Shown in pieces: positions 6,855-39,537 of a stretch of 64,000 nt of DNA (positions are counted from its first letter, which is position 1; the number at the start of each line of letters is the position of its first letter). The position numbers and the translations under genes are program-made. This stretch comes from Nitrospirota bacterium. GTDB lineage: Bacteria > JACPQY01. The notes under the pieces were generated by a model. The model did no database searches and had not been told where the DNA came from. It was given only the letters and a program-made list of their open reading frames with translations. The stretch is taken from positions 104,888 through 168,887 of the forward strand of contig JACPAV010000007.1 of the NCBI GenBank assembly GCA_016180645.1. Reading direction: 5' to 3'.

Positions 6855-8327
6855 GTGTCACGCAATACCCTCCTTCAATCCCTATTAGGGGCTGCGGTCG
6901 GGCTGGCAACAGCTTGTGCCGCAGCCCAACCTGTGTGGGTCTCCACCAATATCCACCCGGTATTTTCCACGCGGGAATACGTAATCGGGGTGGGCGCGGC
7001 TCCGCACACGCGAAGCGAGGAAAATGATCTGGCCCAGGCCGACTCCAACGCCCGCACGGAGATCGCCAAGCAAGTCCAAATCCGCGTTGAAGAGGTCATG
7101 TCCACGCGCCAACACGAGGCAGCCAGGGGAGAGGTGCGGACCGGCTCCTACGAAGTTTCCGTCCGGTCTCAGGAAAGCGTGGGTCTCACGTTGGAAGGCG
7201 TGAAAATCGTTGAGCGGTCCTTCGACAAGAAAGCCGGGCAGCACTACGCGCTGGCGGTCTTGCCGCGGGTCAGCACCTCTATCCGTCTGGCCGATCAGGC
7301 CGCTCAGGGTTTCCGTCAAGCCAAGGCAGCTTTGCGCGAGTCCGCGTTGCTCATCGACTCCGGCGACGTCGTGGGCGCCGCGCGAAGGCTGATCCTCGCG
7401 TCCGATGTTTACGAGAAGGCGGTTGGCCACGAATTGGTTTCTTCCGTCCTCGGACAAACAGGTTCGTCGCCCGATCGGGGCCCACCTCCCTTTCCCACTC
7501 TCATGGACTTGGTGGACAAGACGAAACTGGAGGTCGGGGCGGGTGACGGACAGGCGGGTGTGGCCGGAAGCCCGCTCCCTCGACCCATCCGTGTGCGCGC
7601 GGTCTACGCGGGAGCGGTTCCAGTGGCGCGGTTGCCCCTTGCCGTGGAGGCGCCCTCCGACGCGGCAAGCATAGAGCCGGGGATCCGAACCAACGCGAAC
7701 GGCGAGGCGGAAATTCGGGTCCTCAACGTCAGGAAAACGGGTAGAAGCGTAAACTCCGTCCCCGTTCGGGTGGCTTGGGACGATCTGGTGCAGGAGAGTC
7801 TGGGAGGCCGGCCGCCGTCCTGGATGGGGCGGCTCGGAGGCGGAACGGTCGCCTTCAGGTATCGGCTGCGAACCAAATCGGAAACGAGAGTCTTGGTTCA
7901 GACCTGCGTCTCGCGGGAGGATCGCGTCGTGTCGGATACCGTTCTGTTGCCGCGGCTGATGGGTGAATTCAAGAAGGCTGGGTTCCAGGTCCTGGAAGCA
8001 CCCGCTTCGTTGGGAGCATGGGGCGCATGCCCGAAACCGGATGATTTGAGTGCGCTCCGCGAGAGTTTCCGCGACAGGACCGATTTACTTGTTCTTGCCG
8101 TTGCCGCAACGTCCTTCGCGGGCGTGAGAGAGGCCGTGACCGTCCATCGCGCACACCTGTTCGCGGCGGCGTATGACCTGACCCGAGATGAAACCGTCGC
8201 CTCTCTCGAAGGAGAAGCCGCGGGAGGCGGGAACACACCCGAGCGGGCTGCCGACCGCAGCGTGAGGCAGGTGGCCGAAGACTTGGCGCCTGAACTGGTT
8301 CGGAAAGCCGTTGAAGGTCTGCGGTAG
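6855..8327 (+). CDS. LPP20-family lipoprotein with Ig-like middle domain
   Basis: A 490-residue predicted lipoprotein (leader ending ATAC, Cys21; start GTG 6855). Residues about 38-145 match the LPP20 family (YVIGVGAAP, then DSNARTEIAKQVQIRVEE), found in outer-membrane lipoproteins such as Helicobacter Lpp20 and often next to CsgG-like proteins. Residues about 240-320 look like a transthyretin/Ig-like beta domain (NANGEAEIRVLNV). The C-terminal third resembles a flavodoxin-like or CsgG-like alpha/beta region. It lies in a run with five other secreted proteins. The function is unknown; an adaptor or scaffold role in the outer membrane is an inference. Confidence 0.75.
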   Translation: MSRNTLLQSLLGAAVGLATACAAAQPVWVSTNIHPVFSTREYVIGVGAAPHTRSEENDLAQADSNARTEIAKQVQIRVEEVMSTRQHEAARGEVRTGSYEVSVRSQESVGLTLEGVKIVERSFDKKAGQHYALAVLPRVSTSIRLADQAAQGFRQAKAALRESALLIDSGDVVGAARRLILASDVYEKAVGHELVSSVLGQTGSSPDRGPPPFPTLMDLVDKTKLEVGAGDGQAGVAGSPLPRPIRVRAVYAGAVPVARLPLAVEAPSDAASIEPGIRTNANGEAEIRVLNVRKTGRSVNSVPVRVAWDDLVQESLGGRPPSWMGRLGGGTVAFRYRLRTKSETRVLVQTCVSREDRVVSDTVLLPRLMGEFKKAGFQVLEAPASLGAWGACPKPDDLSALRESFRDRTDLLVLAVAATSFAGVREAVTVHRAHLFAAAYDLTRDETVASLEGEAAGGGNTPERAADRSVRQVAEDLAPELVRKAVEGLR

Positions 8328-8406
8328 CAACCGGCATCGTCCTTCTTCCGCCGGGAGCTACTTTACCTCAAGGGCGTCGTTTGATATAAGGCGGATGGAG
8401 GTTACG

Positions 8407-8868
8407 GTGGGGAAAATAAACCGCTTGATCGTCCTCGCTCTCATCGCACTGTTCTGCGTTTCGTGGCCCGGCGCTGCCTTATCGGAGGAATCACCCAAGA
8501 AGTCGAAATCCGTTCTTGATGAAGCGCTTTCCAAGTGCCAGCTCATTCTCGACGGTCTGGAGAAGGGCGGAAAGGAAGAGCATCGTCGGACGTCGGTGAT
8601 CGGCGTGCGCGCTGGAAAGCCGGCGGGCGCACAGGAACTCTCGGACGATCCCGAGATCTCCGCGCTCCAAAAACAACTCAAGTCGGCAGGTGAGGCCGCC
8701 GCCCGGTTGCGGGGCGCCGTGGAAGCGAGTTCCGATCCGAAGTTCCGCGCCGATGCCTACAAGGCCCTCAGTGATCTCTATGGCTCGATGGCTGAGGCGG
8801 AGAAGCAGATCGCCGAGAAAACGGGCGCCAAGAAACAACCCGCCGATGGAGAAAGTGGAAAGCCGTAA
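8407..8868 (+). CDS. Secreted helical protein of unknown function
   Basis: A protein of about 153 residues with an N-terminal signal peptide (LIVLALIALFCVSWPGAA) and a charged, helical mature part rich in Lys, Glu and Ala (ISALQKQLKSAGEAAARLRG; YGSMAEAEKQIAEK), probably coiled coil. I chose GTG 8407 because GGAGG at 8397-8401 gives a 5-nt spacer; the ATG at 8395 overlaps that ribosome site and would only add four residues. It overlaps the downstream serine protease gene by 23 bp, so the two are probably translated together, and it may be a partner or inhibitor of that protease (inference). Confidence 0.68.
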   Translation: MGKINRLIVLALIALFCVSWPGAALSEESPKKSKSVLDEALSKCQLILDGLEKGGKEEHRRTSVIGVRAGKPAGAQELSDDPEISALQKQLKSAGEAAARLRGAVEASSDPKFRADAYKALSDLYGSMAEAEKQIAEKTGAKKQPADGESGKP

Positions 8869-24401: not shown

Positions 24402-24470
<69 letters not shown>

Positions 24471-24474
<4 letters not shown>

Positions 24475-24613: not shown

Positions 24614-24780
24614 TCCATGCCACAAGACGGTCTCCAACCGACCCGCGTTGCCAACTCCATGGATTTGAGCTACATACCGCAGGGTAAGCTGAAGCATGAA
24701 ACGACAACGGCCAAAGGGGGGAGCGGAATCCCGGTCAATCCAGCATGTCAGTCTCCTGGGTCGGGCGGCGGCAGCCATCC

Positions 24781-26790
24781 ATGAATAACTTTGGCGAGAA
24801 GGTCAATTTCATCTGGTCGGTGGCCGACCTGCTGCGCGGGCCGTACAGGCCGAACCAGTACAAGGACGTGATGCTGCCCCTGACCGTTCTCCGGCGGCTG
24901 GATTGCGTCCTGGAACCTACAAAGGCGAAAGTCCTAGAGAAGCTGAAGAGTCTCCAGGGCGGCAAAGTGAAAAACGTCGAGCCGATTCTGTGCCGCGTCG
25001 CCGGCGTGCCGTTCTACAACACCAGCCGGTTCTCGTTCGAGAAGCTGAAGGGCGATCCGAACAATGTCGCCGCCAATCTCACCCACTACATCAAGGGATT
25101 CTCCAGCCGCGCCCGGGAAATCATCGAGCATTTCGGGTTCGAGGAGCACATCGCCAAGCTCGACAAGGCGGATCGCCTTTTCCTCGTCGTCTCGAAGTTC
25201 TGCGAGATCGATCTCCACCCGGACAAGGTGCCGAACATCGAAATGGGCACGATCTTCGAGGAGCTGATCCGAAAGTTCAACGAGGCGTCGAACGAGGAAG
25301 CAGGCGACCACTTCACGCCCCGCGAGGTCATCCGACTCATGGTGAACCTGCTCTTCCTGCCGGACAACGACGTGTTGACCACCAAGGGCATCGTCAAAAC
25401 CCTTTATGATCCGGCGGCTGGAACGGGTGGAATGCTCTCCGTGGCCGAGGAGTATGTGCGTGAACTGAATCCGGACGCCCGACTGGAGGTCTTCGGTCAG
25501 GACTTCAACCCGCAAGCCTACGCTATTTGCGGGTCGGACATGATGATCAAGGGGCAGAGCCTCGACAACATCCGATTCGGCGACAGCTTTACCCAGGACC
25601 ATCATGCGGGCAGAAACTTCGACTACATGCTCGCGAATCCACCTTTTGGCGTGGAATGGAAACCGCAGGAGAAGGTCATCCGCAAGGAGCACGAGGAACA
25701 GGGATTCGGCGGACGCTTTGGAGCGGGACTGCCGCGCATCAACGATGGATCGTTCCTGTTCCTCCAGCACATGATCGGCAAGATGAAGGAGGCGAAGGAG
25801 GGCGGTACGCGGTTGGGGATCGTCTTCAACGGCTCGCCCCTTTTCACAGGGTCGGCGGGATCGGGCGAGAGCGAGATCAGAAAATGGATCATCGAGAACG
25901 ACTGGCTGGAAGGCATAGTCGCCCTCCCGGACCAGCTTTTCTACAACACCGGCATCTACACATACCTGTGGATTGTCACGAACCGGAAGGAGAAGAGTCG
26001 GCGCGGGAAGATCCAGCTTGTGAATGGGACGACATTTTTCTCGAAGATGCGCAAGAGCCTCGGACAGAAACGGCATGAGATCGGCGAGTCCCATCGCAAC
26101 GAGATCACGCGCCTCTATGGTGAATTCAAGGAGGGGGAATTCGTCCGCATTTTCGACAATCCGGATTTCGGATACCGCCGGATCACCGTGGATCGCCCGC
26201 TCCGGCTTAATTTCGCGGTTACTGAAGAACGAGTGGCCCGTCTGCGGGAAGCCTCGGCCTTCATGAGCCTTGCGGCGAGCCAGAAAAAGGACAAGAAGCT
26301 CAGGCTGGCGAAGGAGGGGGCGGGGCAGGAAGAGCAGAAGCTCATTCTGGCAATTCTCAAGAACAAGATGGACACCTCCACCTTCAAGAATCGCGAGGAA
26401 TTTCTCGGAAGACTCAAGCAGGCGTTCACAGACGGCCACTGGACGGTCGGCGGCCCGCTGATCAAAGCCGTCCTGGAATCCCTTTCCGAGCGGGACGAAA
26501 GCGCCGAAATTTGCCAGGACTTCAAGGGGAATCCCGAACCCGATCCGGAACTGCGCGACTACGAGAATGTTCCCCTCAAGGAAGACGTGACGGAGTACAT
26601 GAAGCGCGAAGTCCTCCCTCACGTTGCTGATTGCTGGGTTGACGAGTCGAAAACCAAGATCGGCTACGAGATCAACTTCAACCGGTATTTCTACAAGTAT
26701 GCACCTCCGCGTCCGCTCGCGGAAATCGAGGCGGACCTGAAGAAAATCGAGGGCGAGATTGCGGCAATGCTGGGGGAGACGTCCGAATGA
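24781..26790 (+). CDS. hsdM: Type I restriction-modification DNA methylase (HsdM)
   Basis: A 669-residue N6-adenine methyltransferase subunit of a type I system. The N-terminal helical HsdM domain (FIWSVADLLRGPYRPNQYKD) is followed by the catalytic domain, with SAM-binding motif I DPAAGTGGML at about residues 210-219 and catalytic NPPF at 286-289. It is longer than the common HsdM of about 500 residues; the extra C-terminal part (about 480-669) is charged and helical. ATG 24781 has only a weak ribosome site. Its stop overlaps the RAYT gene as ATGA. The matching S and R subunits are 6 and 9 kb downstream. Confidence 0.95.
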   Translation: MNNFGEKVNFIWSVADLLRGPYRPNQYKDVMLPLTVLRRLDCVLEPTKAKVLEKLKSLQGGKVKNVEPILCRVAGVPFYNTSRFSFEKLKGDPNNVAANLTHYIKGFSSRAREIIEHFGFEEHIAKLDKADRLFLVVSKFCEIDLHPDKVPNIEMGTIFEELIRKFNEASNEEAGDHFTPREVIRLMVNLLFLPDNDVLTTKGIVKTLYDPAAGTGGMLSVAEEYVRELNPDARLEVFGQDFNPQAYAICGSDMMIKGQSLDNIRFGDSFTQDHHAGRNFDYMLANPPFGVEWKPQEKVIRKEHEEQGFGGRFGAGLPRINDGSFLFLQHMIGKMKEAKEGGTRLGIVFNGSPLFTGSAGSGESEIRKWIIENDWLEGIVALPDQLFYNTGIYTYLWIVTNRKEKSRRGKIQLVNGTTFFSKMRKSLGQKRHEIGESHRNEITRLYGEFKEGEFVRIFDNPDFGYRRITVDRPLRLNFAVTEERVARLREASAFMSLAASQKKDKKLRLAKEGAGQEEQKLILAILKNKMDTSTFKNREEFLGRLKQAFTDGHWTVGGPLIKAVLESLSERDESAEICQDFKGNPEPDPELRDYENVPLKEDVTEYMKREVLPHVADCWVDESKTKIGYEINFNRYFYKYAPPRPLAEIEADLKKIEGEIAAMLGETSE

Positions 26791-27386
26791 AATACGGCCG
26801 CCGGTCCGTCCGCTTGCAGGGCTACGACTACGCCCAATCCGGCGCGTATTTCGTGACGATGTGCGCGCAGGGGAGGGAATGCCTTTTCGGTGACGTGGTA
26901 GACGGCGACATCGTGTTGAATGACGCGGGACGAATCACGGAACGATGTTGGTTGGCAATTCCGGCCCATTTCCCCCATGTTCAATTGGACGTATTCGTCG
27001 TTATGCCCAACCATCTTCATGGGGTCTTGTTGATCTACGACATCCCCGCCGCATCGGCCGTATCCGTAGGGGCGAAAAATATTTCGCCCCTACAATCCGA
27101 CAAATCCGCCGGCCAACGGCCACGTGGGACATCGAAAACCATCGGTTCGGTCATTCGTGGATTCAAAATCGGCGTGACCAAATGGTTCCGGCAAAACACC
27201 TCGATCCACATGGTGTGGCAACGCAATTACTACGAACACGTCGTTCGCAACGACGACGAATTGAACCGCATCCGGGAATACATCGTCAATAACCCGGCGC
27301 AATGGGAAATGGATCTGGAGAATCCAGCTGCGGGAGCGATCCGGCGGGTTGTCCCAACGGAAAGGCCGTGCGAAGACGCACAATGA
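26787..27386 (+). CDS. REP-associated tyrosine transposase (RAYT, Y1/IS200-like)
   Basis: A 199-residue Y1 (HUH) transposase of the REP-associated group. MPNHLHGVLL (about residues 73-82) supplies the His-x-His metal motif, and a catalytic Tyr is expected in the later helix around NYYEHVVRNDDEL, followed by RIREYIVNNPAQW, a RAYT hallmark. Domestic RAYTs are single-copy genes thought to spread REP palindromes. A perfect 28-bp palindrome is inside the coding frame (27066-27093) and another spans the stop codon. The gene overlaps the hsdM stop, so it is likely translated with it, which is an unusual place for a transposase. Confidence 0.9.
   Translation: MKYGRRSVRLQGYDYAQSGAYFVTMCAQGRECLFGDVVDGDIVLNDAGRITERCWLAIPAHFPHVQLDVFVVMPNHLHGVLLIYDIPAASAVSVGAKNISPLQSDKSAGQRPRGTSKTIGSVIRGFKIGVTKWFRQNTSIHMVWQRNYYEHVVRNDDELNRIREYIVNNPAQWEMDLENPAAGAIRRVVPTERPCEDAQ
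27066..27093. repeat. Perfect palindrome inside the RAYT gene
   Basis: The arms GTAGGGGCGAAA (27066-27077) and TTTCGCCCCTAC (27082-27093) are exact complements around AATA. The insert is read in frame as SVGAKNISPLQ, at a loop between the HUH half and the tyrosine half. This is a REP-type hairpin, the kind of sequence RAYTs act on. Confidence 0.8.
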
Positions 27387-27398
27387 CACATTGTGCGT
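27376..27398. repeat. Perfect palindrome across the RAYT stop codon
   Basis: The arms ACGCACAATG (27376-27385) and CATTGTGCGT (27389-27398) pair fully around ACA; the TGA stop at 27384-27386 lies inside it. It could be the RAYT recognition hairpin, a transcript end, or both. Confidence 0.7.
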
Positions 27399-27422
27399 AT
27401 GCGAAGTACACCCCGCCCATTC

Positions 27423-27438
27423 ACACCAATATTAGTGT
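27423..27438. promoter_or_regulatory. Candidate operator of the HigBA-like pair
   Basis: ACACCAATATTAGTGT is a 16-bp near-palindrome with one mismatched pair. It ends 9 bp before the toxin start. Toxin-antitoxin operons of the HigBA type are usually repressed by the antitoxin at such a site. Confidence 0.4.
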
Positions 27439-27447
27439 TGACACATC

Positions 27448-27801
27448 GTGGAGTTCAGCGTAGAGTTCTACGAGTCGCCCGCGGGCCGATGTCCGGTTCG
27501 GGAGTTCCTTGAGGAATTGAGAACGGACGACCCGGATGACTTTGCAGCGGTAATGGCGGGACTCGTGAAGCTCCGGCAAAGGCGGAATCACCGGCCGCCG
27601 ATTTCGAAGCCGGTGGGCGGGGGATTATTCGAACTGCGGCATGTGGGCAAGTTGAATTCGAGAGTGATGTACTTCTTTGTGAGGGGACGGCGGATTGTGA
27701 CTGTACACGGGATACGCAACAAGGCGCGAGACATCTCCCCTCGTGATCGGGTGGCGGCATTGGAGCGGATGAGAGACTGGCGGGCGAGGAACGAAGCATG
27801 A
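27448..27801 (+). CDS. HigB/Gp49-like toxin (RelE superfamily)
   Basis: A 117-residue protein of the phage Gp49-like/HigB group of mRNA-cleaving RelE-fold toxins. The N-terminal VEFYESPAGRCPVREFLEEL and the central GGLFELRHVGKLNSRVMYF are typical of the group, as is the late IRNKARDISPRD basic stretch with the Arg/Lys residues that act in catalysis. The GTG start at 27448 has no obvious ribosome site. The stop overlaps the antitoxin ATG as ATGA. The toxin-first order matches HigBA. It lies within the cargo of the type I island. Confidence 0.87.
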   Translation: MEFSVEFYESPAGRCPVREFLEELRTDDPDDFAAVMAGLVKLRQRRNHRPPISKPVGGGLFELRHVGKLNSRVMYFFVRGRRIVTVHGIRNKARDISPRDRVAALERMRDWRARNEA

Positions 27802-28139
27802 AAAAGACGAATTTCGACATCTATTTGGAAGAACAGATGAGAGACAAGGCTTTTGCGGCGCGGTTCCGTCGGGCGGGTGAGGCGTGGGACGTGGCCCTCC
27901 AGATTGCGGCGCTTCGGAAAGAGGCGGGTCTTTCGCAGAAGGAACTTGCCAAACGACTCCGCACGACCCAGCAACAGGTCAGTCGCTTGGAGTCGACGTC
28001 CTACGAGGGTCATTCGCTCAGCATGCTCCGCCGGGTTGCGGCGGCGCTGGACGCCCGCGTCCGGGTGGTCCTCGAGCCGGCCCGCTCCCGCGGGCACACC
28101 ATCCTTGCAGAGCGGCAGGCCAAATATGGAATCCGGTGA
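27798..28139 (+). CDS. HigA-like XRE antitoxin
   Basis: A 113-residue helix-turn-helix protein. The N-terminal part (NFDIYLEEQMRDKAFAARF) is the toxin-binding type seen in Gp49-linked antitoxins. Residues about 40-95 are an XRE domain (IAALRKEAGLSQKELAKRLR, then QQQVSRLESTSYEGHS). It overlaps the toxin by 4 bp. It would neutralise the toxin and repress the operon through the upstream dyad. Confidence 0.88.
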   Translation: MKKTNFDIYLEEQMRDKAFAARFRRAGEAWDVALQIAALRKEAGLSQKELAKRLRTTQQQVSRLESTSYEGHSLSMLRRVAAALDARVRVVLEPARSRGHTILAERQAKYGIR

Positions 28140-28187
28140 GACCGAGGGTTGAGGGGGCGGTGTGATGAGAAAGAGAAGGCAAGGCCT

Positions 28188-29693
28188 ATGACGGAACCGA
28201 CGGTCATATGTCCAAAGTGCAAGCACGAGTTCAAACTCACGGAATCGCTGGCCGCGCCGCTGCTCGCGTCCCTCCGGCAAGACTACGAGAAACGACTGGC
28301 ACAGAAAGATGAGGACTTTACCAAACGAGAGGGCGATCTGCGGCAGCGGGAAGAAGCGCTGGAGAAGGCCAAGCATGGGGTGGATGAACAGGTCTCCCAG
28401 AAACTGCGGCAGGAACGCGCCAAGATTGCCGCCGAGGAGGCCAAAAAGGCCAAGCTGGCGCTGGGTTCCGACTTGGAACAGAAGACGAAGGAGGTAGAGG
28501 ACCTTCAGGGAGTTCTCAGGAGCAAGGACGAGAAGCTGGCCGAGGCTCAGAAGGCACAGGCTGACTTGATTCGTCTGAAGCGCGAGGTAGATGAAGCCAG
28601 GCGGGAAGCAGAACTGAAGGTGCAGGAGGGGATTCAGGCGGGCCTTGCTGGCGAGCGCGAAAAGGCGCGGAAGGAGGCCGAGGGACGGTTGAATATCAAG
28701 ATGGCGGAGAAGGACGAAGCCGTCGCTTCTCTGCGGAAAGAAATCGAGGATGCCCAGTCAAAACTTTCCGAGGCGCAAATGGCCCAAGCTGAATTCGTCC
28801 GAAAACAGCGGGAGCTTGATGACGAGAAACGCAAGCTGGACCTGACGGTTGAGGAGCGATTGCGGGACGGCGCGGCGGGAATTCGCGAGCAGGGCCGCAA
28901 GGAAGCTGAAGACCAACTCAAGCTCAAGGTTGCCGAGAAAGAGCAGACCATTACCTCCATGCAGAAACAGATCGAGGACCTCAAGCGTCGGGCCGAACAG
29001 GGATCGCAGCAACTCCAGGGGGAAGTCCAAGAGATCGAACTTGAGCAACTTCTGCGTGCCAAATTCCCGCAGGACGATATCGAGCCTGTAGGCAAGGGCG
29101 AGCGGGGTGGCGACATCATGCAGAGGGTTGTCGGCCCACTCGGCCAGCCGTGCGGTTCGATCCTATGGGAGTCGAAACGGACCAAGAACTGGAGCGATGG
29201 CTGGCTCGCGAAGCTCCGGGAGGACCAGAGATCCGCCAAGGCGGAAATTGCGGTGATTGTCAGCCAAGTTCTTCCGAAAGGTATCGATTCCTTCGATTTG
29301 ATCGATGGCGTTTGGGTTGTCCATCCTCGCGCGGCGCTTCCGGTTGCCATGGCATTGCGCCAGACCTTGATCGAAGTCGGGCTGGCCCGCCAGGCTTCCG
29401 AGGGGCAGCAGACGAAAATGGGAATGGTCTACGAGTACCTGACCGGCCCGCGATTCCGCCAGCGCGTTCAAGCCATCGTCGAGGCGTTTTCCAACATGAA
29501 AGAAGATTTGGACAAGGAGAAAAAGGCCATCACGAAACAGTGGGCCAAACGCGAAGAGCAAATCGACCGCGTCATGCAGGGCACCGTCGGCCTGTACGGC
29601 GACCTCCAAGGCATTGCGGGGAAAACCTTGCAGGAAATTGAAGGGCTTGATCTCCCAGTCCTTAATGCACTGACTCCAGATCCGGGAGAATAA
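28188..29693 (+). CDS. DUF2130 protein: coiled coil plus PD-(D/E)XK-like domain
   Basis: A 501-residue protein. It starts with a zinc-ribbon-like CPKCKHEF, followed by a coiled coil of some 240 residues rich in Lys, Glu and Gln. The C-terminal half is the DUF2130 domain, with GDIMQRVVGP and ILWESKRTKNWSDGW, where E-x-K fits a PD-(D/E)XK nuclease-type core. Proteins of this family are found near restriction systems and on mobile elements; the biochemical role is not established. The start at 28188 is chosen by the conserved CPKC; upstream in-frame codons look non-coding. It follows the HigBA pair by 48 bp. Confidence 0.84.
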   Translation: MTEPTVICPKCKHEFKLTESLAAPLLASLRQDYEKRLAQKDEDFTKREGDLRQREEALEKAKHGVDEQVSQKLRQERAKIAAEEAKKAKLALGSDLEQKTKEVEDLQGVLRSKDEKLAEAQKAQADLIRLKREVDEARREAELKVQEGIQAGLAGEREKARKEAEGRLNIKMAEKDEAVASLRKEIEDAQSKLSEAQMAQAEFVRKQRELDDEKRKLDLTVEERLRDGAAGIREQGRKEAEDQLKLKVAEKEQTITSMQKQIEDLKRRAEQGSQQLQGEVQEIELEQLLRAKFPQDDIEPVGKGERGGDIMQRVVGPLGQPCGSILWESKRTKNWSDGWLAKLREDQRSAKAEIAVIVSQVLPKGIDSFDLIDGVWVVHPRAALPVAMALRQTLIEVGLARQASEGQQTKMGMVYEYLTGPRFRQRVQAIVEAFSNMKEDLDKEKKAITKQWAKREEQIDRVMQGTVGLYGDLQGIAGKTLQEIEGLDLPVLNALTPDPGE

Positions 29694-29694
29694 T

Positions 29695-29883
29695 ATGATG
29701 GCCTTGCTTATTGACATTCTCGCCTGGGGCACGGCCATCCTCACCGATTGGCAGCGAGATGCAATGCGTCGCCTGTTCCAGAAACAAGATCTCGATGCGC
29801 AAGATTCCGATGACTTGTTTGCCATGCTGAAGTCTGCACGTGGGACACCCGATCCTCAGAACCGCCACTCCATGTTTCTTTAG
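29695..29883 (+). pseudogene. N-terminal remnant of an AAA-type ATPase gene
   Basis: A 62-residue frame that reads LTDWQRDAMRRLFQ then DLDAQDSDDLFAMLKSARGT. This matches the common N-terminal helical segment of large ATP-binding proteins found in defence loci (W-Q-R-D-A-[LM]-R-R-L pattern followed by a second short helix pair). It then ends at a stop with no Walker A motif. The full-length relatives are several hundred residues long. The Dam-ParB-PRTase cassette begins 36 bp later, so insertion of that cassette may have removed the rest. Confidence 0.5.
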
Positions 29884-29919: not shown

Positions 29920-30936
29920 ATGTTGTTTCTCCGGAATTGTGATATACATTACACTGGTGGTGTCGTAGTGAACCACATTGCGGCTCGATCTTGCCAGCCA
30001 ACTCCGCGAATGCACGGAAATGGTGGGCACATCTTAGATCAGGGGTTGTTGGAAGCGGGGTCACTCTCTCCCCACATTGCGCCGTCGCGCCCGTTTCTTC
30101 GTTGGGCCGGATCGAAGCGGTGGCTCTTGAGGCAGATTGTTCATATCCTGCCACGCCAGTTCGGTAGATACCACGAGCCATTTCTCGGGTCCGGCGCGCT
30201 CTTCTTCTTTCTCGGACCCCAGCGAGCGTTGCTGACTGATAAGTGTAGCGAATTGATTGATGTCTACACGATGATCAGGCATGAGGTGTCCACCATCATT
30301 CGATACTTGAGACCGATGAAGCCGAACCGCGACCTGTTCTACGCCATTCGCAACCAGCCGAGCCGGGGCAGGCTGAAGCGAGCAGCCGAGTTCCTGTATC
30401 TCAACAAAACCTGCTGGAATGGGCTGTACCGCGTCAACTCGGAGGGACGGTTCAACGTTCCGTACGGGATGCCCAGAACGGACTTCATCGCGGACTTCGA
30501 AAATCTCCGTGCATGCTCCCAGGTCCTTGAGAGGCCCGGAGTGAAGCTCCGGTCCTGTGATTTCGAGGCCGCCTTGGTGAACGTGAAGGCCGGCGATCTG
30601 GTTTACCTTGATCCGCCATACGTTACGCGGCACAACAACAACGGCTTCGTCGATTACAACGAAACTCTCTTCTCCTGGGAGGATCAGAGACGCCTAGCCA
30701 CGCGCGCGCGGCAGATCGCAAATGCTGGGGCCTATGTAATCGTGACCAACGCCAACCATCGAGAGGTTGTGGAGCTTTACCAAGGCTTCAAGAGCCGTAC
30801 TCTGACACGGTCTTCGACTCTGGCCTCTGACTTCAAGTGCCGGGGTCGAGTGAAAGAAGCCCTCCTGTACTCTCCGAATTGCGGGGAGGGACGTAGATCA
30901 CCGTGCCGAAGGGTTCTTGGAGGCAGCGATGACTAG
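29920..30936 (+). CDS. Dam-family N6-adenine DNA methyltransferase (D12 class)
   Basis: A methyltransferase of the Dam/D12 class, up to 338 residues. The N-terminal motif is FLRWAGSK (residues 59-66 from ATG 29920), followed by EPFLGSGALFF for SAM binding and the catalytic DPPY at 231-234. The core is complete. The start is uncertain: GTG 29968 and ATG 30010 would remove a non-conserved N-terminal tail, and a TATACA box at about 29943 favours a later start. The gene ends inside the next one (8-bp overlap). It would methylate adenine in a short site; the site is not predictable. No cognate restriction enzyme is adjacent; ParB-like and PRTase-like genes follow. Confidence 0.88.
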   Translation: MLFLRNCDIHYTGGVVVNHIAARSCQPTPRMHGNGGHILDQGLLEAGSLSPHIAPSRPFLRWAGSKRWLLRQIVHILPRQFGRYHEPFLGSGALFFFLGPQRALLTDKCSELIDVYTMIRHEVSTIIRYLRPMKPNRDLFYAIRNQPSRGRLKRAAEFLYLNKTCWNGLYRVNSEGRFNVPYGMPRTDFIADFENLRACSQVLERPGVKLRSCDFEAALVNVKAGDLVYLDPPYVTRHNNNGFVDYNETLFSWEDQRRLATRARQIANAGAYVIVTNANHREVVELYQGFKSRTLTRSSTLASDFKCRGRVKEALLYSPNCGEGRRSPCRRVLGGSDD

Positions 30937-31900
30937 ACGGACCAAGGCCCTTGTTCCCGAGCCGGTCGGTGTCAAGACCCTCCGGACGAACCAGCTCCAG
31001 CCGAATCCGCACAATCCTAGGATGCTCTTCGACAAAGCGCCGATGAAGACGCTCCAAGATTCAATTGGTCAGGTCGGAATCCTGGTGCCGCTCACTGTCT
31101 ACCAGCGCAGGTCGGACCGGCAATTCATCATCTTGGACGGCCAGCGGCGGTGGATCTGCGCACAGAAGGTCGGGCTGCCGACGGTGCCTGTAAATCAGGT
31201 CGCCGAGCCAAACCTGGTTCAAAACATAGTGACGATGTTTCAGATCCACAAGCTGCGCAAAGATTGGGAGCTCATGCCGACGGCGCTCAAACTTGAAGTC
31301 CTCATAACGAAGCTGCAGGAGAAATCAGATCGCAAGCTGGCGGAACTGACGGGTCTGGATATCGCCGTCGTAACCCGTTGTAAGAAGCTGCTTTCGTACT
31401 CAAAGGAGTTCCAGGATCTGATGCTCGACCCAGACCCGGAAAAGCGCGTCAAGGCAGATTTCTTCATCGAGCTGTTTCCAGTCCTCCACGACAGGGTGGT
31501 CAAGAAGATGTCACAACGCTCCCAAGGCCCCCTCGTTCGCAAGATGCTCGCGAAGCATCAAAGCACCGAGGGGGGTATCAGGGCAGTCACAGATTTCCGC
31601 AAGGTCAAGCAGCATTTGGCAAACGCACGGAAGGCAGGCAAGGTCTCGGTAATCGCTCGCAGGTTTAAAGAGTTCGCCGAGAAGGTGGAGCTGAGTCCTG
31701 ACCACCTGGTGATTCCGGCGGCTAACGTGTCAGCCCAGGCAAGATCACTTCACGGCAAGGTCGAAAAACTCCAGGAAGCACTTGCAGGCCTTGACGTCGA
31801 GGCATACGTCGGCGAGGAAGCACTATGGGGCGCAATCGAGTCGCTACTTCGCACGGTTCGCAAATGCCTAGCGGTTGCAGGACGAAGGACCAATGAATGA
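30929..31900 (+). CDS. ParB/Srx-domain protein
   Basis: A 323-residue protein with an N-terminal ParB/sulfiredoxin-like domain (about residues 20-110): LQPNPHNPRM, then QVGILVPLTVYQ and FIILDGQRRW, which replaces the usual GERR box. A helix-turn-helix-like segment follows (LAELTGLDIAVVTRCKKLL), then a helical C-terminus. ATG 30929 has GGAGG 5 nt upstream and overlaps the methylase end by 8 bp. There is no ParA and no parS-like site, so partition is unlikely. The ParB fold can bind CTP or act as a nuclease. Its stop overlaps the next gene's ATG as ATGA. Confidence 0.82.
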   Translation: MTRRTKALVPEPVGVKTLRTNQLQPNPHNPRMLFDKAPMKTLQDSIGQVGILVPLTVYQRRSDRQFIILDGQRRWICAQKVGLPTVPVNQVAEPNLVQNIVTMFQIHKLRKDWELMPTALKLEVLITKLQEKSDRKLAELTGLDIAVVTRCKKLLSYSKEFQDLMLDPDPEKRVKADFFIELFPVLHDRVVKKMSQRSQGPLVRKMLAKHQSTEGGIRAVTDFRKVKQHLANARKAGKVSVIARRFKEFAEKVELSPDHLVIPAANVSAQARSLHGKVEKLQEALAGLDVEAYVGEEALWGAIESLLRTVRKCLAVAGRRTNE

Positions 31901-32724
31901 GAACACCCAAAGATCGCGGGAAACCAGTCGACGCTGGCCGTATGAGATCTTGGCTGGACCGGTTCGACGGCTATCGAATTGCGGTGACAGATCAGCGAAT
32001 CAGCGCTTGGCTCCAGCGCTTTAGACGAGATGATACTGATCTCGGAGCAAGGCTCCTCGACGCGGTCATGTTCCTCAGGTCCGAGGACATGGAGGAGGCA
32101 CTGCGCAAGCTGGTGGACCATCTACCGGGTTGGGATAAAAGTCACGCGCGCCGGGAGGGGAAGTGGCGTTTCCTAGCCTTCTCAATCAGCGCTGGCGAGA
32201 GTGGAGATACGATGCTCCACAAGTCACGAACCGCCCTCGGACTGACTGGCGGTCGATACGATCAACTATTCATCCACAAGGCCGATCTGCTCAAAGAGGA
32301 GCTTGGCTGCGACGACAGCGTAGTTTTCTTTGATGACTTTGCCGGGACGGGTCGGCAAGCTTGTCGTGCGTGGCATGAAACCCTTGCGGAGTTACTTCCC
32401 GGAAGCCCAAGGGCGTATTTGGTCCTTGTTGCAGCTGGGGAGCGGGCCGTTGATCGCATTGCTCAGGAGACAGGATTGAAGGTCGTGACAAAACATGTAC
32501 TCGGCGTTGGTGATGACATTTTCTCAGGGGAATGCGAGCATTTCAGCCGAACGGAGAAAGAACGCCTGGTTGAGTATGGAAAGATAGCGGCTCGAAAGAT
32601 GCCACGAGGCTACGGGGACTGTGGCTTCGTGATCGTGTTGGCTCACAAGACTCCGAACAATTCGATCCCAATCCTTCATGCCAATCACGGTCACTGGAGA
32701 GGATTATTCCCGAGGCACGGATAA
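31897..32724 (+). CDS. Phosphoribosyltransferase-like protein of defence type
   Basis: A 275-residue protein with a PRTase core. The PRPP-loop motif VVFFDDFAGTGRQ lies at residues 142-154, with the two acidic residues followed by T-G as in type I PRTases. An N-terminal helical domain (about 1-110) and the GGRYDQLFIHK segment precede it. This matches what I know as the PRTase-CE group found in biological-conflict loci, though I cannot confirm it by search. It is coupled (ATGA) to the ParB-like gene and through it to the Dam gene. It is not a nucleotide-salvage enzyme by context. Reaction and substrate are unknown. Confidence 0.68.
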   Translation: MRTPKDRGKPVDAGRMRSWLDRFDGYRIAVTDQRISAWLQRFRRDDTDLGARLLDAVMFLRSEDMEEALRKLVDHLPGWDKSHARREGKWRFLAFSISAGESGDTMLHKSRTALGLTGGRYDQLFIHKADLLKEELGCDDSVVFFDDFAGTGRQACRAWHETLAELLPGSPRAYLVLVAAGERAVDRIAQETGLKVVTKHVLGVGDDIFSGECEHFSRTEKERLVEYGKIAARKMPRGYGDCGFVIVLAHKTPNNSIPILHANHGHWRGLFPRHG

Positions 32725-32810
32725 CCGACAACTCGCCACCGGCAGCGCTTCAAGTGCTCAATCCTCATCCGCTGGGAGTCAGACATATTGCTTGCCGATC
32801 TGATGATGCC

Positions 32811-34100
32811 ATGAACTGGCGAGCGTATCCTGAAACCAAGCCGTCCGGCTTGGAGTGGCTGGGGGAGATTCCATCAGGCTGGCGGACCATGCGGCTCAAG
32901 TACTGCGCTTCCCTCGTCAACGAGAAAACAGATGGATTCGCCTCGGAATTGCCATACACCGGGCTTGAACACATCGAGTCCTGGACCGGAAAACGGGTTC
33001 AGACGGGTGAAAAACCGGAAGCTGAAGGGCAGGCAAGCAAGTTCTGCGGGGGAGACCTCCTCTTTGGGAAATTACGACCGTATCTGGCCAAGGTTTTCCG
33101 TTCCGACGAAAGCGGCATCTGCACCGGAGAGCTGTTGGTCTTGCGGACGAAGAACGTCAGCCGTGACTACCTTTTCTACTATGTACTGGCACGGGATTTC
33201 ATTTCAATCGTTGACTCCTCCACCTATGGGGCGAAGATGCCCAGGGCAAGCTGGGAATTCATCGGAAATCTTCCAGCACTTGTTCCTTCTGACAATGAGC
33301 AACGCGCGATCGCGGCGTTTTTGGATCGGGAGACGGGGCGGATTGATGGGCTGATTGAGAAGAAAGAGCGGCAGATCGAACTCCTACAGGAAAAACGCGC
33401 GGCTGTAATCACCCATGCCGTGACGAAGGGCCTCGATCCGAAGGCCCCCATGAAAGATTCCGGCATCGAGTGGCTGGGAGAGATTCCGGCGCATTGGACT
33501 ATTCGTCAACTTAAGTACGTGGCCACGTTTCAGAGAGGACATGATCTTCCAGATTCAGTGCGAGCGGAGGGGGCAGTCCCCGTCGTTACGTCTGGGGGCA
33601 TTTCCGGGAGTCATGATGAATACCGCGCAAAGGGACCCGGAATCGTAACGGGTCGGTACGGGACGATTGGCACGATTTACTATGTCGAGGATGACTTTTG
33701 GCCGCACAATACGACGCTATATTGTAGCAATTCGCGAGGCAACAATATGAGGTTTCTCTGGTACCTGCTTCAGAATATCTCCGGCTTTTTTCTTCTCAAC
33801 GCAGGAAAATCAGCGGTTCCGGGCGTAGACCGCAACGACCTGCATCCCATACCCGTAGCAATTCCTGTGGATGTTGACGAACAGAAGGAGATTGCAGGAT
33901 TTCTCGACAGGGAGACGGTCAAGGGTGACGCCCTTTGTAAACGGATCGATGAATCCATTGCTGTTCTCCGCGAATACCGGACGGCGCTCATCTCGGCCGC
34001 CGTGACCGGCAAGATCGATGTGCGGCCAGCGGACGGGGCACTCAGGAATCTGAACCAAGCCGATGAAGATGGACAAGACGTAACCGTGGTGGGAGAATAA
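32811..34100 (+). CDS. hsdS: Type I restriction specificity subunit (HsdS)
   Basis: A 429-residue specificity subunit with two target-recognition domains in tandem. Each begins with a similar block: SGLEWLGEIPSGWRTMRLKY (about residues 10-30) and SGIEWLGEIPAHWTIRQLKY (about 220-240). Each is followed by a coiled conserved region (AIAAFLDRETGRIDGLIEKK; EIAGFLDRETVKGDALCKRI). It determines the bipartite recognition site of the HsdM/HsdR complex. ATG 32811 was chosen because conserved sequence starts shortly after it. It lies 6 kb from hsdM and 1.9 kb from hsdR. Confidence 0.94.
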   Translation: MNWRAYPETKPSGLEWLGEIPSGWRTMRLKYCASLVNEKTDGFASELPYTGLEHIESWTGKRVQTGEKPEAEGQASKFCGGDLLFGKLRPYLAKVFRSDESGICTGELLVLRTKNVSRDYLFYYVLARDFISIVDSSTYGAKMPRASWEFIGNLPALVPSDNEQRAIAAFLDRETGRIDGLIEKKERQIELLQEKRAAVITHAVTKGLDPKAPMKDSGIEWLGEIPAHWTIRQLKYVATFQRGHDLPDSVRAEGAVPVVTSGGISGSHDEYRAKGPGIVTGRYGTIGTIYYVEDDFWPHNTTLYCSNSRGNNMRFLWYLLQNISGFFLLNAGKSAVPGVDRNDLHPIPVAIPVDVDEQKEIAGFLDRETVKGDALCKRIDESIAVLREYRTALISAAVTGKIDVRPADGALRNLNQADEDGQDVTVVGE

Positions 34101-36021: not shown

Positions 36022-39000
36022 GTGCCGGGGCAACACACCGAGAAAGCGTTCGAAACCGCCATCGAAGACTTCCTCGTCTCCGGGGGCGGGTACAGTAAGG
36101 GCGACAAGTCGGCGTACGATCCTGCGCGGAGCTTGTTCCCCCAAGAGGTCTTGGGATTCATCCGCGAGACTCAGCCCAAGGAATGGGAGTACCTCAAGAA
36201 TCTCCAAAAAGAGAAAGCCGAAGAGATTCTTTTTGATGACCTCTGCCGCGCGCTCGACTCAAATCAGGAAGGCTGCCTCTCCGTGCTCCGGCACGGGTTC
36301 AAGTGCTTCGGAAAGCTGTTCCGCGTGGCGTATTTCTCTCCGGCCAGCGGTCTGAATCCGGAAATCCAGAAGCTCTACGATGCGAACCGGCTGACGATCA
36401 CCCGTCAGGTCGTCTATTCAAGCCGGCACGGGAATTCAATTGATGTCGCGTTGGCGCTGAATGGGATTCCCGTCGCCACCGCCGAACTTAAGAATCCCAT
36501 GACCGGCCAGAACTGGCGTCACGCCATCCACCAGTACAAGAGCGACCGAGATCCTGCCGATCTGATCCTTCAATTCAAGAAGCGGGCGCTGGTCCACTTT
36601 GCGGCGGACCCGGACGAGGTCTACATGACCACCCGCCTCGCGGGCGGCAATACCCACTTCCTGCCCCTCAACCGGGGCCATAACAACGGCGCGGGGAACC
36701 CGGAAAATCCCACGGGGTGGAAAACGGCCTACCTCTGGGAGGAAATCCTGGAGCGGCACAGCTTTCTGGATATTCTCGCGCGATTCGTCCATCTCCAGGT
36801 CGAAGAGAAGAAGCTGGGCGGGAAGACCGTCAAACGAGAGAGCATGATTTTCCCACGCTACCACCAGCTTGATTCGGTCCGGCGGCTGGTTGCGGACGTG
36901 CGCCGGGAGGGGGCGGGGACGAACTATCTTGTCCAGCATTCCGCGGGGAGCGGGAAGAGCAACTCCATTGCGTGGCTCGCCCATCGGCTGTCGAGCCTCT
37001 ACAACGAGAAGGACGAGAAGGTGTTTGACTCGGTGGTGGTGGTGACGGATCGGGTTGTTCTGGACCAGCAGCTTCAGAACACGATCTATCAATTCGAGCA
37101 CAAGCAGGGCGTCGTCCAGAAGATCGACGTCGATTCCGAACAGTTGGCGAAGGCGCTCTCCGCCGGAGTCCCCATCGTGATTACGACGCTTCAGAAGTTT
37201 CCTTTCGTGACCGAGAAGATCGGCGATCTCCCCAAACGGAAGTACGCCGTCATCATCGACGAAGCGCACAGCTCGCAGGGCGGGGAGACGGCGGCTGATC
37301 TGAAGGGTGTTCTCGGCGGCGCGGCCATCAGGGAGGAAGCGCAGAAGAAGAAGGAAGAAGAGGGGCTGACGGACTACGAGGAGGAGGTCTTGCGGACGAT
37401 GGCCAAACGTGGTCGCCAGCCGAACATCAGCTTCTTCGCCTTCACGGCCACGCCCAAATACAAGACGCTCGAAGTCTTCGGTCGTCCAGGAGCGTACGGA
37501 AAGCCTCAGCCATTCCATCTCTACAGCATGCGCCAGGCCATCGAGGAACGCTTCATCCTGGACGTTCTCAAGCACTACACGACTTACCAGACCTACTACC
37601 GCCTTGTGAAATCCATCGAGGACGATCCCAAGGTGGACAAGCGCAAGGCAGCCCGCGCGCTTGCACGGTTTATGAGCCTGCACCCGCACAACATCGCCCA
37701 GAAGACGGAGGTTATGGTCGAGCATTTCCGCCATTTCACGATGCACAAGATCGGAGGCCGCGCGAAGGCCATGGTGGTCACGTCCAGCCGCCTCCATGCC
37801 GTGCGGTACAAATTGGAATTCGACAAGTACATCAAGGAAAAGGGCTACAGGGGCATCAAGACGCTCGTCGCTTTCTCCGGAAGGGTGATCGATCCGGATG
37901 TACGGGGGATGGAGTTCACCGAGGAGGGCATGAACATCGATGCCAAGGGGAATCGAATCCGTGAGAAGGAACTCCCGGAGCGGTTCGGGACGGATGAATA
38001 TCAAGTGCTTCTCGTGGCGGAGAAGTTCCAGACCGGGTTCGACCAGCCGTTGCTGCACACCATGTACGTGGACAAGCGACTTGCGGGAATCCAGGCCGTT
38101 CAGACCCTATCGAGGCTGAATCGGACATGCCCCGGCAAGGAGGACACCTTCGTGCTGGACTTTGTGAACGACCCGAAGGAGATCCAGGATGCGTTTCAAC
38201 CGTATTACGAGCAGACGCTTGTGGGGGAGCGCGCCGAGGCGAAGCAACTCTACGAACTTCAGGCCAAGCTGAACGCGCATCAAATCTATCACGCGGAGGA
38301 AGTCGAGGAGTTTTGCAAGGCGTTCTATCGTCCCGCGCGGGAGCAAACCCCCGCCGATCATGCCCGCATGAACGCGTGTCTCGATCCCGCCGTGGGACGA
38401 TTCAAGGAACTCGAGGAGGACAAGCGGGAGGAGTTCCGGAAAACCTTGATCGCGTATCGGAACCTGTACGCGTTTCTGTCGCAGGTGATCCCGTTCCAGG
38501 ATTCGGACTTGGAGAAGCTCTACACGTACATCCGATTCCTTCTGGCGAAGCTTCCGAGGGAGGATCGGGGTCCCGTCTACGACTTCGAGGATGAGGTGGC
38601 GCTCAAGTACTACCGGGTCCAGAAGATCGGCGAGGGTTCGATCAAGCTGGATGCGGGGAAGCAAGCGCCCATCTCCGGGCCGACGGAAGTCGGAACGGGA
38701 GTGGTCCGGGGAGTCCAGATCGAGCTGTCGAAATTGATCGACATCTTGAACGAGCGATTCGGGACGGAGTTTAAGCCGGGCGATCAACTATTCCTGGACT
38801 CGATCAAGGAGGACGCAGTGGGCAACTCCAATTTGAGGCAGGCGGCATTGGCTAACACGATGGAGAACTTCGGATACGTCTTCCTGAAGGCGCTCGAAGG
38901 ATTGTTCATCGACCGGATGGAACAAAATGAGGAGATGACGGCGCGGTTCATGAACGACGGGGAGTTCAAGGAGGTGATCGGGAAACACCTCTTGAAGGAA

Positions 39001-39537
39001 GTCTACCAGCACATCCGGTCACAGGGATCGAAAGGGCAAGCGGAGGTCCTGCCATTCCGGCGCGTGACGCCCTCGGAGAAGGACAAGTACCGGACTTGCC
39101 TGCCGTTGGTGCCGCTTCAGGCCGCCGCGGGCGCATTCAGTGGATCGCAGGCGGTTTCGCCGCAGGATGGCGAGTGGGTGGAAATTGATTCGGGGCACAA
39201 GTTGAGGCTGGGCATGTTCGTGGCGCAGGTGAAAGGTCGTTCCATGGAGCCGCGCATCCCGGATGGCGCATACTGCCTGTTTCGCGCTCCTGTGGAGGGC
39301 TCCCGGCAGGGTCGGACTGTGCTGGCGCAGCATCGCGACATCCACGACCCCGATTCCGGCGGGCAGTACACCGTCAAACGGTATACCAGTCGCAAGGTGG
39401 CGGATGGCGCGGGTGGCTGGCGGCACGTCGAGATCGCCCTCCAGCCTGAGAACAAAGATTACGCCCCCATCATGCTGAAAGCCGACGACGAAGGTTCCAT
39501 CTCCGTCATCGCCGAACTTTTGGAAGTGCTCAAGTAG
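36022..39537 (+). CDS. hsdR: Type I restriction subunit R (HsdR) with C-terminal S24 peptidase domain
   Basis: A 1171-residue translocase-nuclease. The N-terminal PD-(D/E)XK nuclease has Asp141 in SIDVALALNG and ELK (Glu155, Lys157). The helicase has Walker A SAGSGKS (Lys312) and DEAH (413-416), then VTSSRLHAVRYK and LLVAEKFQTGFDQP. After the usual helical C-terminus, residues about 1050-1168 form an S24/LexA-type peptidase domain. VKGRSMEPRIPDGAY carries the nucleophile Ser1074 and YTVKRY the general base Lys1119, a 45-residue gap as expected. LexA-like self-cleavage could control the nuclease (inference). The start GTG 36022 has GGGAGG 4 nt upstream. Confidence 0.95.
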   Translation: MPGQHTEKAFETAIEDFLVSGGGYSKGDKSAYDPARSLFPQEVLGFIRETQPKEWEYLKNLQKEKAEEILFDDLCRALDSNQEGCLSVLRHGFKCFGKLFRVAYFSPASGLNPEIQKLYDANRLTITRQVVYSSRHGNSIDVALALNGIPVATAELKNPMTGQNWRHAIHQYKSDRDPADLILQFKKRALVHFAADPDEVYMTTRLAGGNTHFLPLNRGHNNGAGNPENPTGWKTAYLWEEILERHSFLDILARFVHLQVEEKKLGGKTVKRESMIFPRYHQLDSVRRLVADVRREGAGTNYLVQHSAGSGKSNSIAWLAHRLSSLYNEKDEKVFDSVVVVTDRVVLDQQLQNTIYQFEHKQGVVQKIDVDSEQLAKALSAGVPIVITTLQKFPFVTEKIGDLPKRKYAVIIDEAHSSQGGETAADLKGVLGGAAIREEAQKKKEEEGLTDYEEEVLRTMAKRGRQPNISFFAFTATPKYKTLEVFGRPGAYGKPQPFHLYSMRQAIEERFILDVLKHYTTYQTYYRLVKSIEDDPKVDKRKAARALARFMSLHPHNIAQKTEVMVEHFRHFTMHKIGGRAKAMVVTSSRLHAVRYKLEFDKYIKEKGYRGIKTLVAFSGRVIDPDVRGMEFTEEGMNIDAKGNRIREKELPERFGTDEYQVLLVAEKFQTGFDQPLLHTMYVDKRLAGIQAVQTLSRLNRTCPGKEDTFVLDFVNDPKEIQDAFQPYYEQTLVGERAEAKQLYELQAKLNAHQIYHAEEVEEFCKAFYRPAREQTPADHARMNACLDPAVGRFKELEEDKREEFRKTLIAYRNLYAFLSQVIPFQDSDLEKLYTYIRFLLAKLPREDRGPVYDFEDEVALKYYRVQKIGEGSIKLDAGKQAPISGPTEVGTGVVRGVQIELSKLIDILNERFGTEFKPGDQLFLDSIKEDAVGNSNLRQAALANTMENFGYVFLKALEGLFIDRMEQNEEMTARFMNDGEFKEVIGKHLLKEVYQHIRSQGSKGQAEVLPFRRVTPSEKDKYRTCLPLVPLQAAAGAFSGSQAVSPQDGEWVEIDSGHKLRLGMFVAQVKGRSMEPRIPDGAYCLFRAPVEGSRQGRTVLAQHRDIHDPDSGGQYTVKRYTSRKVADGAGGWRHVEIALQPENKDYAPIMLKADDEGSISVIAELLEVLK

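Follow-up and report, generated by a model that had tools for sequence, protein, structure and literature searches.

A DprA-PRTase pair protects against the phages T7 and lambda, and in shosTA the antitoxin role is played by DprA homologues (PMC9122126). In retron III-A a PRTase is combined with a winged helix protein (PMC12548924). PD-lambda-5 includes a predicted methyltransferase, is protective in E. coli against most phages tested (PMC9519451), and is regarded by its authors as a compacted prophage system that unites restriction-modification and abortive infection (RM+Abi; Vassallo et al. 2022, PMC9519451). On plasmids, PRTases of the PRTase-CE family occur in systems with an ORC-CDC6-like ATPase (PF24390 with PF24389).

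The locus analysed here lies in a window of 64,000 nucleotides, the whole stretch of DNA examined, from a Nitrospirota bacterium. It encodes a Dam-family adenine methylase, a ParB-family protein and a PRTase-CE protein. With ShosTA, which is mobile and anti-phage, it shares the pairing of a DNA-binding partner with a PRTase effector. However, the partner in ShosTA is DprA instead of ParB, no methylase is described there, and the PRTases are likened by description. Retron III-A also has a DNA-binding partner, and the window PRTase matches the PRTase_III-A models of PADLOC (2.8e-25), but the partner in the cassette is a ParB and a methylase is added. Pfam and PADLOC scans of the neighbouring island proteins recognized no reverse transcriptase, and an Rfam scan at gathering thresholds returned only a tRNA. 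The resemblance to PD-lambda-5 is found in the window methylase, which matches PD-Lambda-5_B of PADLOC weakly (2.1e-7) and generic methylase models far better, and in the ParB of an alphaproteobacterial relative of the cassette (L158, see below), whose N-domain matches PD-Lambda-5_A at 8.5e-4 over 52 residues only. The A model covers about 470-490 aa, whereas the cassette ParB has ~320 aa and is accompanied by a separate effector gene. PD-Lambda-5_A gave no match to the window ParB at E 0.1, and PADLOC holds no model matching this protein.

The plasmid systems use the same PRTase family as the cassette, and those of L085, L086, L088 and L089 have a neighbouring gene annotated as, or matching, an N-6 DNA methylase. 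They differ in their sensor, an ORC/CDC6-like ATPase with a protein of ~310 aa, and their PRTases are only 20-25% identical to that of the window. Since PRTase-CE is paired with such an ATPase on plasmids as well, it appears to be an effector common to more than one system. The plasmid system with an adjacent N-6 methylase is carried by many Klebsiella plasmids. A description of the trio itself was not found in PADLOC or in the open-access papers searched, in line with the preliminary description of the locus, whose author knew of none.

The cassette and the surrounding island

The relevant features of the window are as follows.

24745-26790, + strand: hsdM of the type I restriction-modification system that holds the cassette (PF02384, 3e-55; PADLOC MTase_I, 3.7e-294)
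28149-29693, + strand: intact DUF2130 gene, context (PF09903, 2.1e-79, profile positions 2-253 of 255)
29695-29883, + strand: N-terminal remnant (~62 aa) of an AAA-family ATPase (tblastn to plasmid AAA ATPases, E 2e-8)
30046-30936, + strand: D12-class (Dam-family) DNA adenine methylase, given from its likely start (PF02086, MethyltransfD12, E 7.9e-45; TIGR00571 dam, 218.5 bits against a cut-off of 114.85; DPPY and FLGSG motifs intact)
30929-31900, + strand: ParB-family protein with ParB_N domain, HTH region and helical C-terminus (PF02195, E 4.7e-13; TIGR00180 at cut-off)
31897-32724, + strand: PRTase-fold protein of the PRTase-CE family, putative toxic effector (PF24390, E 1.5e-37, 130 bits against a cut-off of 27, profile positions 1-253 of 253)
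32754-34100, + strand: hsdS (PF01420, 1.3e-18; PADLOC Specificity_I, 1.9e-107)
36022-39537, + strand: hsdR (HSDR_N and SWI2_SNF2 domains)

The Pfam matches bear out the three genes that the preliminary description had named. Its single operon also stands: the methylase and ParB genes overlap by 8 bp (30929-30936), the ParB and PRTase genes by the 4 bp ATGA (31897-31900), and the effector gene comes last. ParB starts at ATG 30929, with GGAGG upstream. The methylase frame is open from ATG 29920, the start given earlier, but in homologues only 10-25 aa precede FLRWAGSK, and in the list of candidate starts TTG 30046/30049 is preceded by AGGGG. Because of the homologue lengths and this upstream motif, the gene probably starts at TTG 30046/30049 and 29920 is too early. 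The absence of ParA from the cassette was also correctly noted; a parAB pair of the genome is located elsewhere, on contig C19, where a ParA-like ORF with KGGVGKT lies beside a ParB with GERR and ENLQRVDL. No parS-like or common inverted repeats were found upstream of the operons.

As described before, the cassette precedes hsdS within a type I restriction island, with hsdS 30 bp downstream, hsdM upstream and hsdR further downstream. The truncated ATPase was also correctly recognized: it lies directly upstream of the cassette, between the DUF2130 gene and the methylase ORF, and is in frame with the latter but ended by a stop. Insertion of the cassette as a unit had been proposed as well. Neither a GC break nor a flanking repeat was found at the cassette ends, so this proposal rests on gene content and on the apparent mobility of the cassette at other loci. 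HigBA-like and zeta-toxin-like genes occur in the same stretch. Translations read by eye place a RAYT-like transposase and a HigB/HigA-like pair at 26787-28139, between hsdM and the cassette. The HsdR-like protein carries a C-terminal Peptidase_S24 domain of the LexA/UmuD type (Pfam 4.5e-8, aa 1034-1162); such a fusion is unusual and might tie restriction to the SOS response. A tRNA-Lys gene (24402-24474) directly upstream of hsdM could mark where the island integrated; a repeat of its end (at least 12 nt) was searched for at 30-50 kb and not found.

The PRTase and the ParB relative

The PRTase belongs to the conflict-effector family PF24390, and the FFDDFAGTGRQ loop pointed out earlier corresponds to its PRPP-loop, VFFDDFAGTG; the pattern xDDFxx[TS]G is present in 7/7 PRTases of the trio loci. 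Its AlphaFold2 model (pLDDT 92, pTM 0.88) matches a phage PRTase-CE protein best in the viral structure library (TM 0.69 on query), and the best PDB matches are uracil and orotate phosphoribosyltransferases, with a loose fit (TM about 0.3-0.35 on query). A ComF or nucleotide salvage enzyme, the identity that the preliminary description had held to be incompatible with a system, is ruled out by family: the PF24390 match covers the full profile, and neither PF00156 nor ComF matches at E 0.1.

The ParB shares ParB_N and an HTH with the ParBs of ParABS systems, Noc and KorB, which are also its best Foldseek matches (the model has a pLDDT of only 66). It differs from them in more than the missing ParA. 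Together with ten relatives found by searching, it splits from 17 canonical ParBs with a support of 100/100; the branch of L133 is very long, and its position inside the clade is unsure. The motif ENxxRxDL is changed throughout the clade to an xIHxxRxxW-like sequence (MFQIHKLRKDW in the window protein), such that Ile-His replaces Glu-Asn in 11/11 members, while Glu-Asn is present in 17/17 control ParBs; G[EQ]RR, by contrast, is retained. The Glu-Asn pair of ParB coordinates Mg-CTP. Because this pair is replaced, the clamp chemistry of the clade may differ from that of canonical ParBs. For the same reason, the CTP use suggested for this protein is less certain than the preliminary description implied.

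Recurrence of the trio and exchange of its parts

Besides the window, the trio was found at six other independent loci, so it is not peculiar to this island. The seven loci are spread over bacteria of several phyla and contigs of a viral collection; three of the six are viral-collection contigs, two are alphaproteobacterial, and one comes from a genome of the phylum to which a Bryobacterales MAG belongs. The gene order of the window is kept in five of the six (L120, L125, L129, L130 and L131/L132). L120 came from a search of 385 alphaproteobacterial genomes, and L125, whose PRTase is 22% identical to that of the window, from searching the phylum of this MAG with ParB. When 2.9 million viral contigs were scanned with a ParB alignment, all four matches carried the full trio in window order; L131 and L132 are near-identical and were counted as one locus. 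In L130 the trio is flanked by an endolysin gene on one side and an integrase on the other. In the sixth locus, from Jiella pelagia (L093), ParB (5e-99) comes first, directly followed by the PRTase (39% identity) and then by a D12 methylase of another kind; this locus was among the 14 relatives obtained with a three-sequence PRTase alignment against about 85,000 species genomes. Seventeen canonical ParB loci (2.2-3.6 kb each), examined as a control, held no relative of the methylase or the PRTase. Judged from these loci, the recurrence of the trio is far beyond chance.

The ParB clade is sporadic, with occurrences in 3/318, 2/347, 1/248, 1/297 and 0/321 genomes of five sampled groups. In the family of G148 it was found in 1/60 genomes, which was the query genome itself. 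The phylum of the window has two genomes in the collection, and sampling was therefore drawn from other phyla. In the 318-genome sample, clade members gave E values of 1e-50 to 1e-140 and so stood well clear of canonical ParBs (about 1e-20 to 1e-23). Scans of viral and genome contig collections with the single PRTase sequence returned nothing; with close relatives absent there, alignments were needed for searching, and a nine-sequence PRTase alignment was too diverse for this use. A scan of viral contigs for DNA encoding DDFAGTG gave 80 loci, none with a relative of the PRTase, ParB or methylase. Nor did searches of annotated phage, plasmid and E. coli collections, at the sensitivities applied, find the trio. 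From its gene order and distribution, the trio is best described as a compact, recurring and horizontally scattered unit.

A methylase is present in every trio locus, but not the same one. The window has a canonical Dam-like enzyme, 33-39% identical to other Dam-like methylases and about equally far from each; most loci have a second D12 group, and the Jiella enzyme belongs to a ~410-aa D12 group together with those of L158 and L160. The methylases of L120 and L130 are 55% alike, their ParBs 32%. By these comparisons the methylase is exchangeable among loci, and in Jiella it is replaced outright. Over the seven loci, pairwise ParB distances correlate with PRTase distances (r=0.96, n=7, exact permutation p 0.003) and far less with methylase distances (r=0.31). 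ParB and PRTase thus seem to diverge in step while the methylase does not, a pattern that is suggestive rather than strong, as there are only seven loci and they fall in two clades.

Four further ParB relatives (L126, L133, L158 and L160) lack the PRTase, and each lies near a DNA methylase. In the alphaproteobacterial L158 the order methylase-ParB is followed by an Mrr-like nuclease (Mrr_cat, 3e-4), and the third gene of L160, from the phylum of an Acidimicrobiaceae MAG, encodes an Mrr-like nuclease that shares 25.7% identity with that of L158 (E 1e-20). For the Mrr-type ParB, a viral scan returned no relatives. L126 has a 282-aa protein with the motif IHDRYIIS in the third slot; a PLD-type nuclease was considered for it, but family matches gave this no support. 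In L133 (Bacteroidota, 6937-8801), the most distant member, ParB is followed by a DUF4062-like protein (Pfam 0.0024, below cut-off), and the two genes are inserted between an EcoO109I endonuclease and the C5 methylase that belongs to it. Since the methylase is swapped and the effector in relatives is an Mrr-like nuclease or another protein, Dam-ParB-PRTase appears to be one version of a wider methylase-ParB-effector arrangement. The trio proposed earlier does recur as a unit, but, as far as sequence comparison tells, only ParB is its constant part, the methylase and effector being variable. The number of members is small, seven trio loci and four ParB relatives without PRTase.

Possible functions

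All parts of the cassette come from known families, and their logic resembles that of known systems. The reading that we favour, with a confidence somewhat above even, is that of a mobile anti-phage or addiction module centred on a dedicated ParB-like protein, with an exchangeable methylase and effector and a toxic PRTase. The defence role is a prediction from gene families and context. The methylase would mark the DNA of the cell itself, and ParB, through its HTH and clamp-like N-domain, would restrain the PRTase as long as the DNA is properly marked. The DNA-bound state of ParB would be altered by invading DNA that is unmodified or rearranged, or if the module is lost. The PRTase, once freed, could consume PRPP or a nucleotide, or modify its target, and growth would stop. 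Either the phage would fail (abortive infection) or the module would be retained (addiction). PRTase toxicity, restraint by ParB, methylation as a self mark and abortive infection are all inferred. PRTases kept in check by a DNA-binding partner have precedents in ShosTA and retron III-A. The phosphoribosyl-based signalling offered as an alternative in the preliminary description found no support.

Restriction-modification systems and toxin-antitoxin pairs can persist by post-segregational killing. The cassette could do the same if the methylase, ParB or both counteract the PRTase or nuclease as antitoxin, and would then play no real part in phage defence. Such addiction without defence is possible, though on balance we consider it unlikely. 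It would fit a compact overlapping operon with the effector last, the HigBA-like and zeta-toxin-like genes in the neighbourhood, the scattered distribution and the precedent of the DprA-PRTase pair, which combines toxin-antitoxin and defence functions. Against it, there are three genes rather than two, and the conservation of DNA methylation in every trio suggests discrimination of self from non-self; L130, moreover, lies beside phage accessory genes, a placement typical of superinfection-defence cargo.

Considerably less probable is the reading that the trio serves mobile elements as an epigenetic or regulatory module, in which Dam and ParB would govern replication, segregation or expression and the PRTase would supply or salvage nucleotides. 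ParB and methylase genes are indeed common in phages, fusions of ParB and methylase exist in phages (PHROG 498, matched at 2.1e-8; PMC5512222), and synthesis or sensing of a nucleotide has been proposed for the PRTase domains of invasive elements. Yet a ParA partner is missing, the PRTase falls in a conflict-effector family and not a salvage family, a nuclease occupies the same slot in relatives, and the window copy lies inside a chromosomal island of restriction-modification and toxin-antitoxin genes. We give the least credence to a form of restriction-modification in which ParB would be a specificity or loading subunit and the effector would directly attack foreign DNA that lacks methylation, or the nucleotides of that DNA, while the cell survives. 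The versions with an Mrr-like nuclease share the methylase-ParB arrangement, which agrees with such a scheme, but no DNA-cleaving activity is known for the PRTase fold, so the scheme cannot by itself account for the window version.

Within the favoured reading of a ParB-centred anti-phage or addiction module, a bolder proposal can be made, which we hold only tentatively: the repurposed ParB with its Ile-His pair would be a hub that senses DNA methylation and licenses swappable effectors (PRTase, Mrr-like nuclease and others), making up a new, scattered class of immune or addiction systems. There is a fair chance that this hub defines a class of its own. If this is right, a ParB-centred family would be added to modular immunity, and a partition-protein fold with a changed nucleotide pocket would have been recruited to monitor DNA methylation. 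PRTase effectors, whose mode of action in retrons is reported as unknown, would gain another sensor beside DprA, retron msDNA with the winged helix protein, and ORC-like ATPases. It would also give a reason for the presence of PRTase-CE genes near DNA methylases.
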